A stretch of DNA of 64,000 nucleotides, taken from Candidatus Zixiibacteriota bacterium. GTDB taxonomy: Bacteria > Zixibacteria > MSB-5A5 > GN15 > JACZUZ01. The translations under genes were made by a program, and so were the position numbers. This document shows, piece by piece, positions 15,516 through 19,689 of the stretch. Numbering within the stretch: position 1 is the stretch's first letter; the number at the start of each line of letters is the position of its first letter. Below the pieces are notes generated by a model that was given only the letters and a program-made list of their open reading frames with translations, did not search any database and was not told the origin of the DNA. The stretch spans positions 310,001 through 374,000 of the forward strand of contig JAJRPJ010000010.1 of NCBI GenBank assembly GCA_024280835.1. Reading direction: 5' to 3'.

Positions 15516-17411
15516 CTAAACCGCCTCGACTAATTTGTCGTGTCTGTATAGCTCGGCGTATAGTTCGCCTTGGGCTATTAGTTCCTCGTGGGTTCCGTCT
15601 GCGACTATTCTGCCATTGTCGAAAACTAGGATTCTATCGACTGCGCTCAGGGTCGCCGTGCGATGAGTGATGACGATATTGGTTGTCGGGTAGGGCAGAT
15701 TATTCAGCGCCTCCCAGAGTTTGTCCTCGGTGCTGGCGTCCAGCGCCGAAGTGCAATCATCGAGAATCAAGATTCGCGGTTTGGTAACCAGTGCGCGCGC
15801 CATCGCGACACGTTGTTTTTGTCCGCCCGAAATTGTTAGCCCGCGAGTTCCGACAGAGGTTTGCAGGCCGTCGGGGAAACGCGCAAGTTCAGATTTCAAT
15901 TGCGAAACCTCAATCGCCCAATCAATATCGGCAGGCTTGATGTTTTCTCTGCCGAAAAGAATGTTGTTCTCAATTGTGTCCGAGAATAGGGCAGGCTCCT
16001 GTGAAACGAAACCAATCAGCCCACGCAAATCTTCAAGACGCAAGTCAGTCACTGGGATTCCGCCAATTTTAACTATACCAGAATCAGGATCAATCAAACG
16101 TGGAATTAGATTTGCTGTCCAAGTTTTACCCGAGCCAACTTTGCCAACCAAGGCCACTGTCTGTCCTGACTCAATCGTGAAGCTGACATTAGCAAGAACC
16201 GAGCGGCTATCACTCAAAGATAGTGACACATCCTCGAATGATATCTCACCCTGGATGTCACTAGGTAGTGGCTTTGTCCCTGACTTCACTTTGCCGCTCT
16301 TATAGCTTTGCAATTCCATCAACCTGTCAATCGAGACTGCTGATTGTAGCCCCTTGACTAAGAAACTGCCTATATCCAACATCGGGAAAATCAATAACAT
16401 CACAAAATAATCGAACGCCAAAAATCCGCCCAAAGTAATCTCGCCTTGAATCACCATATACCCACCAGCCACTAAAGCCAGCGCAATTCCGAACTCTGGG
16501 ATATATGTATAGAACGACTCAATAACAGTTTGCGCACGCACCGCGGAAATCTCAGCGGTACGGCGGTCCTCGACGACCTTGGCGAAATGTTTCTTCTGTG
16601 GCTCTTCCTGACAATAGGCTTTGACTACGCGGATCCCTGAAAAACAGGCGTCCATCAAATCGTTAAGCTTCGATATTCGTGATTGCAAATAATCATAACG
16701 CTTATCGAGTTTTGTCGCGCAAAACCCATAGATAATTATCAGCGCTGGCAAAGGCGCAATAGTGATTAACGCTAGTTTGACATTCAAACTCAGCATGACA
16801 ATTACGCTAAAAGCGACCATCAACAGCGCTTCATAGAATCGAAATATCCCCGAGCAAGAAAACCACGACAGTTTCTCCGCGACATCATCAGTTAGCCGAG
16901 TGATAATGTCACCTGTGTTGAAGGCGCCAAAAAAACGAGGACTATGCTCACTGATATCGGCGAAAACTTCCTGACGGAACTCCATTTCAAGTCGGGAGTT
17001 CATCCAGGCGCGGTGGTTTTGGACAATCAAATAGATCAATAATGAGATAGTGGCAAAAGCCAAAAACACTAGTGACAAATCTCCAGTGGAAGTCCAGCCA
17101 TTGTCCACCAAGAAACGAGTAATGAAGTCGTCATATTGGTTTAGCGCCTCGGGACCTCCGCGCAAGTTGTCGATGACATTGCGAAAGATAATCGGCTGGA
17201 CGACCATTGATGCGGCATGCAAGGCTGTGAAAAACAACAGCACAAAAAGTACATACGGAAAGCGCGCGTAGTATGCAGCAATCCATTTGATTTTTTGCGC
17301 CCACGTGAATCGCATCTGGCGCTGGGTGAATGTTTCCTCTTTCTTTTTCAAATCAACATGTTTCGAATCAGGCTTTTTCAAGTCTTCTATAATATTAGTC
17401 GTTTCAGACAT
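15516..17411 (-). CDS. ABC exporter half-transporter, degenerate-site subunit
   Basis: A 631-residue half-transporter with a six-helix membrane domain (about residues 50-340) and a C-terminal ATPase. Walker A is GKVGSGKTW and the signature is LTISGGQKQRVAMARAL. Walker B is ILILDDCTSALD, with Asp where the catalytic Glu normally stands. That is the hallmark of the degenerate-site subunit in heterodimeric exporters such as BmrC/BmrD, LmrC/LmrD and TM287/288. The ATG at 17411 has an AAGGAG site about eight bases upstream and overlaps the end of the partner gene by eight bases; a longer reading from 17447 lies inside the partner. With the next gene it should form a multidrug or lipid/peptide exporter. 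The substrate is unknown. Confidence 0.88.
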   Translation of the reverse strand: MSETTNIIEDLKKPDSKHVDLKKKEETFTQRQMRFTWAQKIKWIAAYYARFPYVLFVLLFFTALHAASMVVQPIIFRNVIDNLRGGPEALNQYDDFITRFLVDNGWTSTGDLSLVFLAFATISLLIYLIVQNHRAWMNSRLEMEFRQEVFADISEHSPRFFGAFNTGDIITRLTDDVAEKLSWFSCSGIFRFYEALLMVAFSVIVMLSLNVKLALITIAPLPALIIIYGFCATKLDKRYDYLQSRISKLNDLMDACFSGIRVVKAYCQEEPQKKHFAKVVEDRRTAEISAVRAQTVIESFYTYIPEFGIALALVAGGYMVIQGEITLGGFLAFDYFVMLLIFPMLDIGSFLVKGLQSAVSIDRLMELQSYKSGKVKSGTKPLPSDIQGEISFEDVSLSLSDSRSVLANVSFTIESGQTVALVGKVGSGKTWTANLIPRLIDPDSGIVKIGGIPVTDLRLEDLRGLIGFVSQEPALFSDTIENNILFGRENIKPADIDWAIEVSQLKSELARFPDGLQTSVGTRGLTISGGQKQRVAMARALVTKPRILILDDCTSALDASTEDKLWEALNNLPYPTTNIVITHRTATLSAVDRILVFDNGRIVADGTHEELIAQGELYAELYRHDKLVEAV

Positions 17412-19203
17412 GTGCTTTCTCCTTTCGAGCGGCTTGTTCTGGCGCAAATTGTAGCCGGAACAACGAATGGTAATATCCCTCTTGGGCTACCAGTTCTGAA
17501 TGGGCGCCACTCTCAATTATTTGTCCTTCTTTGATTACCAGAATTCTGTCACAAGCCAGAATCGTTGAAAGACGGTGCGCGACTATCAATGATGTGCGGT
17601 TCTCAAGTAAATGTGAGAGCGCTTCTTGGATTTTACGCTCGGTTTGAGGGTCGACAGAGCTAGTGGCTTCATCGAGAATCAAAACCTGCGGGTCGAACGC
17701 CAGCGCGCGGGCGAACGAAAGTAATTGCCTTTCGCCGCGCGAGAGATTTGTGCCACGTTCGGAAATTTCTGCGCTATACTCATTGGGCAACGTTGCGATA
17801 AACTCATCTGCTCCGACTGCGACTGCAGCCGTGCGCATGGCTTCCTCGGAAATATCTGGAGCGCCCAATGTAATGTTGGAACGCACATCACCGGGGAAGA
17901 GGTAGATGTCCTGCAAAACGAGCCCGAACAAACCACGCAATTCTTCCTTCTTCAACTTGCGAATATCTGTGCCATCGATAGTGATTGCGCCAGATTGTGG
18001 GTCATAGAAACGGAGTAAGAGATTGATGATCGAACTCTTGCCGCCACCTGTGACACCCACCAGCGCAATTCTTTCGCCTGGTTTGATTTCAAAAGAAACA
18101 TCACGCAGGGCATAGTTGTCGTCATTGGTGTATGAGAAGCTGACATTTTCAAAGCGAATGTTTTGCTTCATCTTTTCCAATCCAAATCTGTTTTCCACTT
18201 GCGGAATGATTTCTTGAGTCTCTAGCAAGTCATTGATACGTTTGAGTCCCGAAATAGCTTTCTGGACAACATAGAGTTCATCAGAGAAACGATAAATTGG
18301 TTCAAACATTTTGCGCAAGAACTGGATGAACATCACAATCACGCCAATTGTAATAGCTGGCTCTCCCAACCACTTGCCACCGAAATACAGGACTCCAGCA
18401 ATTAACGCCGCCTCTGTGTAGAAAATGGCATTGAAATAGGTCGAGGCGCCAATGCTTGCAAAGCTATCGAGCAAGAATCTCTCACGATTGACTTCCATGA
18501 GTCTGGATTGCGCATAGCGCATCCGATGGAATACCTGGACAATTGTAATAGCCTGCAAGAACTCCGCTATGCGCGCAGTAATATCGGCCATCCGTTTCCG
18601 TGATTCCAAAAACTTATTACTGGTCAGTTTTTCATAGACAAAAGTCAAAATCAAAACCACGGGTAAGGCGCTGGAAACCACCAAAGTCAATTTCGGTGAG
18701 ATGATTAACATGGCAGTCAGAATTCCAGATAGCAGCAAGAAATCTCCAACAATGACAGTGACTGCGAATGTGAAAAACATCCGCAAACTATCAGTGTCGG
18801 ATTCAACGCGCGCCATCAGTTTGCCCGATGGATTGCGATCGAAGTAAGAGAGGGAGAGCCGCAGAATCTTTGCGAATAATTTCTCTTTGAGTCCTGCTAT
18901 TATTGTCTGGCCGATTTGTTCGAGTCGAATTCGCTGCGCATAGCTGAGCGCCAGCAAAGCGCCCTGCGCCAACAAATACAATCCGACAACCACAAGTAGA
19001 TCGTCCCAGTCGCTGTTGGCGATACTCTTGTCGATAGCTCGCCTGATAAGCAAGCCCTTGAAAACAATCAGGGCGCTAATAGCCACCAGTAGCGAGACGC
19101 AAAAAGCGACACCCCATCGGTAGGGCCCAAAGAGCGGTATGAGCATTTTTAGCGCATCCCAAGAGCTCATTTCGATTTCTTCATGTTCTTGTTTGTTAGT
19201 CAT
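17404..19203 (-). CDS. ABC exporter half-transporter, catalytic-site subunit
   Basis: A 599-residue half-transporter: six membrane helices (about residues 20-330), then an ATPase with Walker A GVTGGGKSS, signature NLSRGERQLLSFARAL and a canonical Walker B VLILDEATSSVD. It is the partner of the degenerate subunit downstream, and the two reading frames overlap by eight bases. The family is the MdlA/LmrD/BmrD type of heterodimeric exporter. It is the first structural gene after a leader ORF and an intrinsic terminator 70 bases upstream, so expression probably needs anti-termination. No substrate-specific domain (for example a C39 peptidase) is present. Confidence 0.9.
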   Translation of the reverse strand: MTNKQEHEEIEMSSWDALKMLIPLFGPYRWGVAFCVSLLVAISALIVFKGLLIRRAIDKSIANSDWDDLLVVVGLYLLAQGALLALSYAQRIRLEQIGQTIIAGLKEKLFAKILRLSLSYFDRNPSGKLMARVESDTDSLRMFFTFAVTVIVGDFLLLSGILTAMLIISPKLTLVVSSALPVVLILTFVYEKLTSNKFLESRKRMADITARIAEFLQAITIVQVFHRMRYAQSRLMEVNRERFLLDSFASIGASTYFNAIFYTEAALIAGVLYFGGKWLGEPAITIGVIVMFIQFLRKMFEPIYRFSDELYVVQKAISGLKRINDLLETQEIIPQVENRFGLEKMKQNIRFENVSFSYTNDDNYALRDVSFEIKPGERIALVGVTGGGKSSIINLLLRFYDPQSGAITIDGTDIRKLKKEELRGLFGLVLQDIYLFPGDVRSNITLGAPDISEEAMRTAAVAVGADEFIATLPNEYSAEISERGTNLSRGERQLLSFARALAFDPQVLILDEATSSVDPQTERKIQEALSHLLENRTSLIVAHRLSTILACDRILVIKEGQIIESGAHSELVAQEGYYHSLFRLQFAPEQAARKEKAHV

Positions 19204-19273
19204 ATATGTTCTCTAATCGCTTTGTATTCTTGCTTGATATTCACTTTCTAATTCCAGAGAGCGTTCTGGATAC

Positions 19274-19306
19274 AAAAAAACCGCGTCCGAATGTTTTCGG
19301 TCGCGG
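19274..19306 (-). terminator. Intrinsic terminator (attenuator) upstream of the ABC exporter
   Basis: On the minus strand, CCGCG-A-CCGAA-AACA-TTCGG-A-CGCGG is followed at once by seven T residues. That makes ten pairs with one A.A mismatch. It ends 70 bases before the exporter start and begins 34 bases after the leader ORF stop. CCCGCGA, covering its 5' arm, can pair instead with TTGCGGG at 19358-19364 near the end of the leader ORF, which gives a competing antiterminator. Confidence 0.82.
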
Positions 19307-19340
19307 GTGGCGTAATAACGGTAAGAATGAGTTTGATTCC

Positions 19341-19550
19341 TTATCCGATAAACGTCTCCCGCAATCTTGTTGGGGACATCGCTGTCCAGCCAACTAAAGT
19401 AGGGCTAGCTGTCAATGAATTGCCAGCGCACAAATTCGCACTGCAACCACTAACTAACATTCGAGAGGTAGAATTATTCTGTCGCCGAGAATTGAGCGCA
19501 GAGAGGTCCTCAAATGTATTTGCTAACATCATTTTTAACATATAAATCAT
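19341..19550 (-). CDS. Putative regulatory leader peptide of the ABC exporter
   Basis: A 69-codon ORF with an excellent ribosome site (AAGGAGG, five bases before ATG). It is not recognisable as a known protein. It starts MIYMLKMMLANTF, has a Ser/Asn/Arg-rich middle and two cysteines (CSANLC), and ends in LRETFIG. There is no signal or membrane domain. It sits between a promoter (19661-19689) and an intrinsic terminator, followed by a heterodimeric ABC exporter. That is the architecture of the B. subtilis bmrB-bmrCD attenuator, in which translation of a leader peptide controls transporter transcription. The codons TTG-CGG-G near its end form the antiterminator arm. The alternative, a secreted or modified peptide exported by the transporter, is less likely but open. 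Confidence 0.6.
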   Translation of the reverse strand: MIYMLKMMLANTFEDLSALNSRRQNNSTSRMLVSGCSANLCAGNSLTASPTLVGWTAMSPTRLRETFIG

Positions 19551-19660
19551 CAGAACCTCCTTAACTCGATACGCGTTACTTCACCGCGAGAGTATCTCTA
19601 ATAGCAAACCCATCATGTGGGCTTGGCTAGCGCTATGTTTTCATTGTTTCATCGAAAGCA

Positions 19661-19689
19661 ATAGTAGCAGATTGATACGCTACTGTCAA
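19661..19689 (-). promoter_or_regulatory. Predicted promoter of the leader ORF / ABC operon
   Basis: On the minus strand, TTGACA (19684-19689) and TACTAT (19661-19666) are 17 bases apart. The start would be near 19654, leaving about 100 bases of leader before the small ORF. That leader contains a dyad CCCACATGATGGG near 19608-19620. Confidence 0.6.

Follow-up and report, generated by a model that had tools for sequence, protein, structure and literature searches.

Organization of the leader and exporter genes

The window, by which we mean the whole 64,000-nucleotide stretch of DNA that was analyzed, belongs to a metagenome-assembled genome of Zixibacteria. An earlier note on its sequence had guessed correctly that the host is a diderm from the neighbourhood of the FCB group. 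Two ABC half-transporter genes on its minus strand are preceded by a promoter, a short leader ORF and an intrinsic terminator, and an RNA arm within the ORF (E2) can pair with an arm (E3) that also forms the terminator stem (E3:E4). The parts are listed below from the promoter onward.

19661..19689, minus strand: promoter TTGACA-N17-TACTAT with an extended −10 (10 of 12 consensus matches, TG before the −10)
19577..19593, minus strand: candidate E1, a possible anti-antiterminator, ACTCTCGCGGTGAAGTA, able to pair with E2 (duplex −15.2 kcal/mol, z −2.0)
19556..19562, minus strand: Shine-Dalgarno sequence AAGGAGG of the leader ORF, five bases 5′ of the ATG at 19550
19341..19550, minus strand: leader ORF of 69 codons (from ORF reading and the family-wide, frame-specific avoidance of GA)
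19358..19364, minus strand: E2, antiterminator 5′ arm TTGCGGG, codons 63-65 of the ORF (E2:E3 covariation in 49 relatives)
19319..19347, minus strand: small hairpin at the stop codon, nested between E2 and E3 (computed fold)
19301..19307, minus strand: E3, CCCGCGA, either the partner of E2 or the 5′ arm of the terminator (E2:E3 and E3:E4 covariation)
19274..19306, minus strand: intrinsic terminator (stem 19306-19281, ten pairs with one A.A mismatch, then T7)
17404..19203, minus strand: ABC1 half-transporter, Walker B LILDEATSSVD, degenerate signature LSRGE (translation; PDB relatives)
15516..17411, minus strand: ABC2 half-transporter, degenerate Walker B LILDDCTSALD, signature ISGGQ (translation; PDB relatives)

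The earlier note had described the promoter, a leader of about 100 bases (we measured about 104 nt up to the ATG), the 69-codon ORF with AAGGAGG five bases before its start, a ten-pair terminator with seven T residues, and two overlapping half-transporter genes, one with a canonical Walker B (LILDE, in ABC1) and one with a degenerate one (LILDD, in ABC2). Each of these was found at the positions listed, and the ATG of ABC2 at 17411 overlaps the ABC1 stop codon by 8 nt. The complementarity that it had noticed between TTGCGGG (19364-19358) and CCCGCGA (19307-19301), the latter lying over the 5′ arm of the terminator, is also real and includes one G.U pair. The duplex between the Shine-Dalgarno sequence and the anti-Shine-Dalgarno was computed at about −11.5 kcal/mol, or −13.5 if the ATG bonus is counted.

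The 394-nt leader of the window is strongly structured (z = −3.55; 0 of 100 shuffles were equally stable). When the two conformers, whose energies the earlier note had proposed to compare, were folded in isolation, the antiterminator (−25.7 kcal/mol) and the terminator (−24.0 kcal/mol) were nearly isoenergetic. The E2:E3 duplex of the window taken alone gave z −0.2, a test made uninformative by the long ORF of the window. With 69 codons this ORF and those of its two family members (50 and 48 codons) are length outliers, the length elsewhere being about 25. Much stronger evidence than this one sequence comes from the relatives, in which the complete layout is found again.

Among bacterial solved structures, the closest relatives of ABC1 were TmrA, YheH/BmrD and TM288, and those of ABC2 were TmrB, YheI/BmrC and TM287; the respective pairs are TmrAB, BmrD/BmrC and TM288/TM287. 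The pair has the make-up of a heterodimeric exporter with one degenerate ATP site, in which LILDD goes with LSRGE.

The leader is conserved before orthologous exporters

A DNA search with the window leader matched the sister species only, and conservation was therefore traced through orthologs of the exporter. A close relative of the window exporter was found in Candidatus Zixiibacteriota (81% identity), in a genome of the same genus as the window, and in two relatives of the window's family the promoter, small ORF, terminator and exporter follow in the same order. The exporter was present in all of the good genomes of the order (45/45, E <= 1e-135), and wherever the upstream DNA could be read, the leader arrangement preceded it in essentially all genomes of the order. 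We parsed 69 ORF-bearing leaders automatically, excluding G011, whose contig stops short of the ORF start; 66 of the 69 parsed cleanly and three (G074, G045 and G046) are doubtful or variant. Nearly all of the parsed leaders have a Shine-Dalgarno sequence and a start codon. The promoters of the relatives are TTGACA-16/17-TATATT-like and lie at a distance similar to that in the window, with a median of 79 nt from the end of the −10 to the ATG; at least 10 of 12 consensus positions matched in 70% of the relatives versus 4.6% of shuffles. A terminator between the leader ORF and the first structural gene was found throughout the order and in families of the class.

In the class outside the order, a recognizable version of the leader occurs at about 16 of 20 exporter orthologs, in families f5 (with a different sequence), f9, f10, f15, f16 and f18. 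No leader ORF with an antiterminator was recognizable at the exporters of family f17 in L154 (G123), L158 (G121, partly masked) and L159 (G120), a possible loss of the switch.

Two observations concern individual genomes. In one genome the exporter leader is present twice: besides the copy at 1546777, a further strong one stands ahead of a paralog of ABC1 (L121, G051:C1:815300-818700). In L053 (G045, genus g35), and possibly in L050 (G074), the stop codon lies a few bases before the antiterminator arm and not after it; a ribosome at the stop codon just before E2 in the G045 leader would still cover E2.

E3 covaries with two alternative partners

We aligned 49 leaders of families f3 and f4 and examined the nine-pair E2:E3 helix, which was paired in 94.3% of the cells. 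Sliding the register by 1-3 columns lowered pairing to 35-55%. Both arms were changed in 43 cells, compared to 14.2 in shuffles (0 of 500 as high), and the E3:E4 terminator stem gave 31 doubly changed cells compared to 9.0 (0 of 500); these shuffle counts ignore relatedness, and the changed pairs are spread over many genera. Examples of E2/E3 pairs are GGCGGG/CCCGCC, GACGGG/CCCGTC, AGCGGG/CCCGCT and AATGGG/CCCGTT. Since E3 is common to both helices, and both covary, the two structures are mutually exclusive, and the constraint on E3 to pair with two partners is the signature of an attenuator. The proposal in the earlier note was vulnerable to relatives in which the ORF, the arms and the terminator were not conserved and did not covary; examined in the relatives, the attenuator survived.

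Folding with a masked ribosome and the proposed switch

To model the effect of a translating ribosome, transcripts truncated ahead of E4 were folded while the footprint of the ribosome was masked at one position after another. The mean P(E2:E3) was about 0.85 for a ribosome in the first half of the ORF and about 0 for one between roughly 60% and 90% of its length. At the last position of the ORF, E2:E3 was again allowed at equilibrium for many leaders (0.60), except when the ribosome was modelled as a barrier. In the window, P(E2:E3) was 0.99 with the ribosome up to about codon 55 and about 0 at codons 61-70. These results suggest that normal translation leads to termination and that early stalling leads to read-through. 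Together with the covariation, they lend support to the idea, put forward in the earlier note, that the position of a ribosome chooses between the two structures.

We therefore consider it highly probable that the heterodimeric ABC exporter at this locus is controlled by ribosome-mediated transcription attenuation. Its anatomy, its conservation, its covariation and the translation of its ORF can be read from the comparison of sequences; we infer its switching, its inducing signal and the cargo of the pump. In the proposed mechanism, RNA polymerase would make the leader while ribosomes translate the short ORF. A ribosome following normally would cover or block E2 during the synthesis of E3 and E4, so that E3:E4 would form and transcription would stop before ABC1. 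A ribosome held early in the ORF would leave E2 free to pair with E3, possibly assisted by the stop-codon hairpin (family mean z −0.95, a modest support), and transcription would proceed into ABC1-ABC2. Inhibitors that slow or stall ribosomes would then be the most likely signals and the pump the response, and, by comparison with toiL, natural inducers would be drugs whose arrest of the ribosome comes early or on the start codon. Drugs are in this reading a presumed signal and a presumed cargo. Because the exporter is near-universal in the order, a housekeeping substrate may apply, and the exporter may have a housekeeping role.

In the computed ribosome-free state, E2:E3 was favoured in most leaders, which would thus be antiterminated, and the absence of a ribosome, besides stalling, may switch the pump on. 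A variant in which the leader is off by default makes the opposite prediction: E1 would pair with E2 when the ORF is not translated, and induction would need translation, as reported for bmrB, whose start-codon mutants are not inducible (PMC4191407). E1:E2 pairing does exceed that in dinucleotide shuffles (mean z −1.9), and the E1:E2 pairs of the leaders themselves beat swapped pairs (p 6e-10; ungapped cores, 0.0025). By contrast, E1 dominates the folds of truncated transcripts in a minority of leaders, the window not among them, and it is absent or weak in many; in the window itself the ungapped E1:E2 core is weak (p = 0.07). E1 as a universal core part was therefore set aside, being statistically supported yet not fold-deciding in most leaders, and was kept as a possible extra. 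We regard the default-off variant as a minority possibility that nevertheless carries appreciable weight.

The leader ORF is conserved as a frame and not as a peptide

The attenuator that we favour would depend on translation of the leader ORF, and we examined how the ORFs evolve. Most of the 69 are 23-31 codons long. The stop codon lies 18 nt past the E2 core in 41 of them, 15 nt in 11 and 19 nt in 4, at the same position whichever codon is used (28 TGA, 22 TAA and 19 TAG); stop codons in the two other frames are scattered. Gaps in the ORF alignments are multiples of three only. The dinucleotide GA is depleted at codon positions 1-2 (observed/expected 0.27, bootstrap 95% interval 0.14-0.41) and not in the other registers (1.05 and 0.95), and depletion confined to one register indicates that the ORFs are translated. 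Translation of the leader ORFs is thus supported at the sequence level by the avoidance of GA and by the preserved frame and stop position. Codons for Asp and Glu are accordingly avoided, making up 1.5% of the codons before E2 in 59 leader peptides of the order; of the 69 residues in the peptide of the window, three are acidic. A ribosome can become unstable when its nascent chain is acidic, a phenomenon described as intrinsic ribosome destabilization (PMC9718836), and by analogy this is a possible reason for the avoidance.

The peptide itself is not conserved. The pN/pS ratio is about 0.70, substitutions are distributed almost evenly over the three codon positions (81, 84 and 87), and no conserved residue was found in the parsed leaders beyond the portion fixed by E2. 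In G032, G060, G043 and G066, E2 is read in another frame (AAG and not RGG) with the distance to the stop codon nearly unchanged, indicating that selection acts on the RNA arm and the stop position and not on residues. The ORF would therefore serve mainly as a ruler for the ribosome, in which length, frame and stop position are kept and the amino acids are free except for the avoidance of acidic ones. As a tentative extension, the ruler may be independent of the peptide across the class and may couple a core exporter to the overall condition of translation and to no particular drug, acidic residues being excluded perhaps against drop-off or pausing before the decision point.

These features bear on a mechanism of the erm/msrD type, in which one class of drug would arrest the ribosome at a defined motif of the nascent chain. 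The peptide of the window ends in RLRETFIG, RGG(R/G) is frequent near the C-terminus of the leader peptides, and ribosomes with a bound macrolide can stall at R/K-X-R/K motifs (PMC12121999). However, the C-terminal motif is dictated by E2, the four genomes named above read E2 in the other frame, and the pN/pS ratio is about 0.7, which makes specific arrest improbable.

An attenuator in which codon runs sense starvation for one amino acid, as in trp, would have the same overall design, and Ile (12.5%) and Asn (11.0%) are enriched in the leader peptides. Genuine examples are, moreover, present in the order: the covariance model of the exporter leaders also retrieved amino-acid leaders. L123 (G007:C126:7000-10650) and L124 (G022:C114:6250-9900) have an ORF with WWWW and a terminator before trpE-trpG-trpD-like genes and are apparently classical trp attenuators in Zixibacteria. 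A WWWC leader ORF precedes a TrpB-like gene in L134 (G022:C468:12500-16300), and a YYYRYYYAF leader ORF precedes DAHP synthase/prephenate dehydrogenase-like genes in L129 (G039:C81:7600-11300), the genes of all four loci being named from reading their translations. Attenuation thus appears to be in use in the order, and the obvious W and Y runs of these leaders set them apart from the exporter leaders, none of which, among those parsed, has a codon run. The exporter leader is of another type than these starvation sensors: for want of codon runs, and with no conserved residue outside the E2-fixed part and an exporter as the controlled gene, the amino-acid sensor was dropped as very unlikely.

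At the stop codon, many leaders contain TGTGA-N6-TCACA, which could be taken for a CRP site or for a small hairpin in the RNA. As DNA it is the CRP consensus, and it overlaps the stop codon (for example in L025, L011 and L020). A CRP-type DNA site was rejected because other leaders have different hairpins at that place, which favours an RNA hairpin, the z-scores being modest. This element and the highly structured leader would suit an antiterminator controlled by a ligand or a protein in the manner of a riboswitch, with an incidental ORF. Such control is scarcely credible, given that an Rfam search of the leader returned no relevant family match, that no aptamer is conserved, conservation being limited to the arms and the terminator, and that frame-specific GA avoidance and the fixed stop distance imply that translation matters. 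Finally, consensus scans alone were barely above chance in the window region, as expected if the terminator belonged to an upstream transcript and the ORF arose by chance, but the order of the parts, their spacing and their covariation are kept in about 70 genomes, and this reading is for practical purposes refuted by the E2:E3 covariation and the GA depletion.

Significance and comparison with known attenuators

The best-known attenuators responding to ribosome inhibitors come from Firmicutes, with a few from Proteobacteria and Actinobacteria. Here, what appears to be one attenuator accompanies a single kind of exporter throughout a diderm phylum that is largely uncultured, and its sequence varies enough for the mechanism to be read from covariation alone. 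The comparison separates what must be kept (ORF length, frame, stop position, two competing helices and few acidic residues) from what is dispensable, the peptide sequence, so that the choice between a ruler and an arrest peptide becomes testable. The conserved leader suggests that Zixibacteria have long had to cope regularly with ribosome stress. Among the papers searched, none connects Zixibacteria with transcription attenuation.

Like trp-type attenuators, the exporter leader consists of a leader ORF followed by mutually exclusive helices that end in a terminator. It differs from them in the lack of a codon run and in geometry: in the trp leaders L123 and L124, E2 directly abuts the stop codon, whereas in the exporter leaders the stop codon typically lies 18 nt past E2. 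The toiL uORF of E. coli (PMC12121999) offers another parallel, one uORF responding, through the position of the ribosome, to ribosome inhibitors of several classes; toiL, however, governs translation initiation and Rho-dependent termination of topAI, whereas the Zixibacteria leader has an intrinsic terminator. Naville and Gautheret 2010 (PMC2965389) predicted ABC-leaders, one of them before a multidrug export operon of lactobacilli. These share a premature terminator before ABC transporter genes with the present leader; in the portion of their account considered here, they belong to other phyla, have no sensor assigned and include no example from Zixibacteria.

The closest parallel is bmrB-bmrCD of Bacillus subtilis, which is controlled by ribosome-mediated transcription attenuation (PMC4191407). 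Both systems have a translated short leader ORF, a competing terminator and antiterminator and, downstream, a heterodimeric multidrug-type ABC exporter; the exporters are homologous, each with one degenerate site, ABC1 being related to YheH/BmrD and ABC2 to YheI/BmrC. The likeness to bmrB-bmrCD that the earlier note had drawn is in this respect supported, with a differing leader layout: the bmrB terminator lies inside the ORF, whereas that of Zixibacteria lies about 20-35 nt past the stop codon. The Zixibacteria leader is further distinguished by an antiterminator that covaries phylum-wide, a peptide that varies freely and a fixed distance from E2 to the stop codon. The bmrB-bmrCD operon is induced by 50S inhibitors such as lincomycin. 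The state of the untranslated leader, on or off, is a point at which the two systems may depart from each other. By analogy, the Zixibacteria leader would work like bmrB-bmrCD, but it is a different leader, a variant of ribosome-mediated transcription attenuation that probably originated independently of bmrB.
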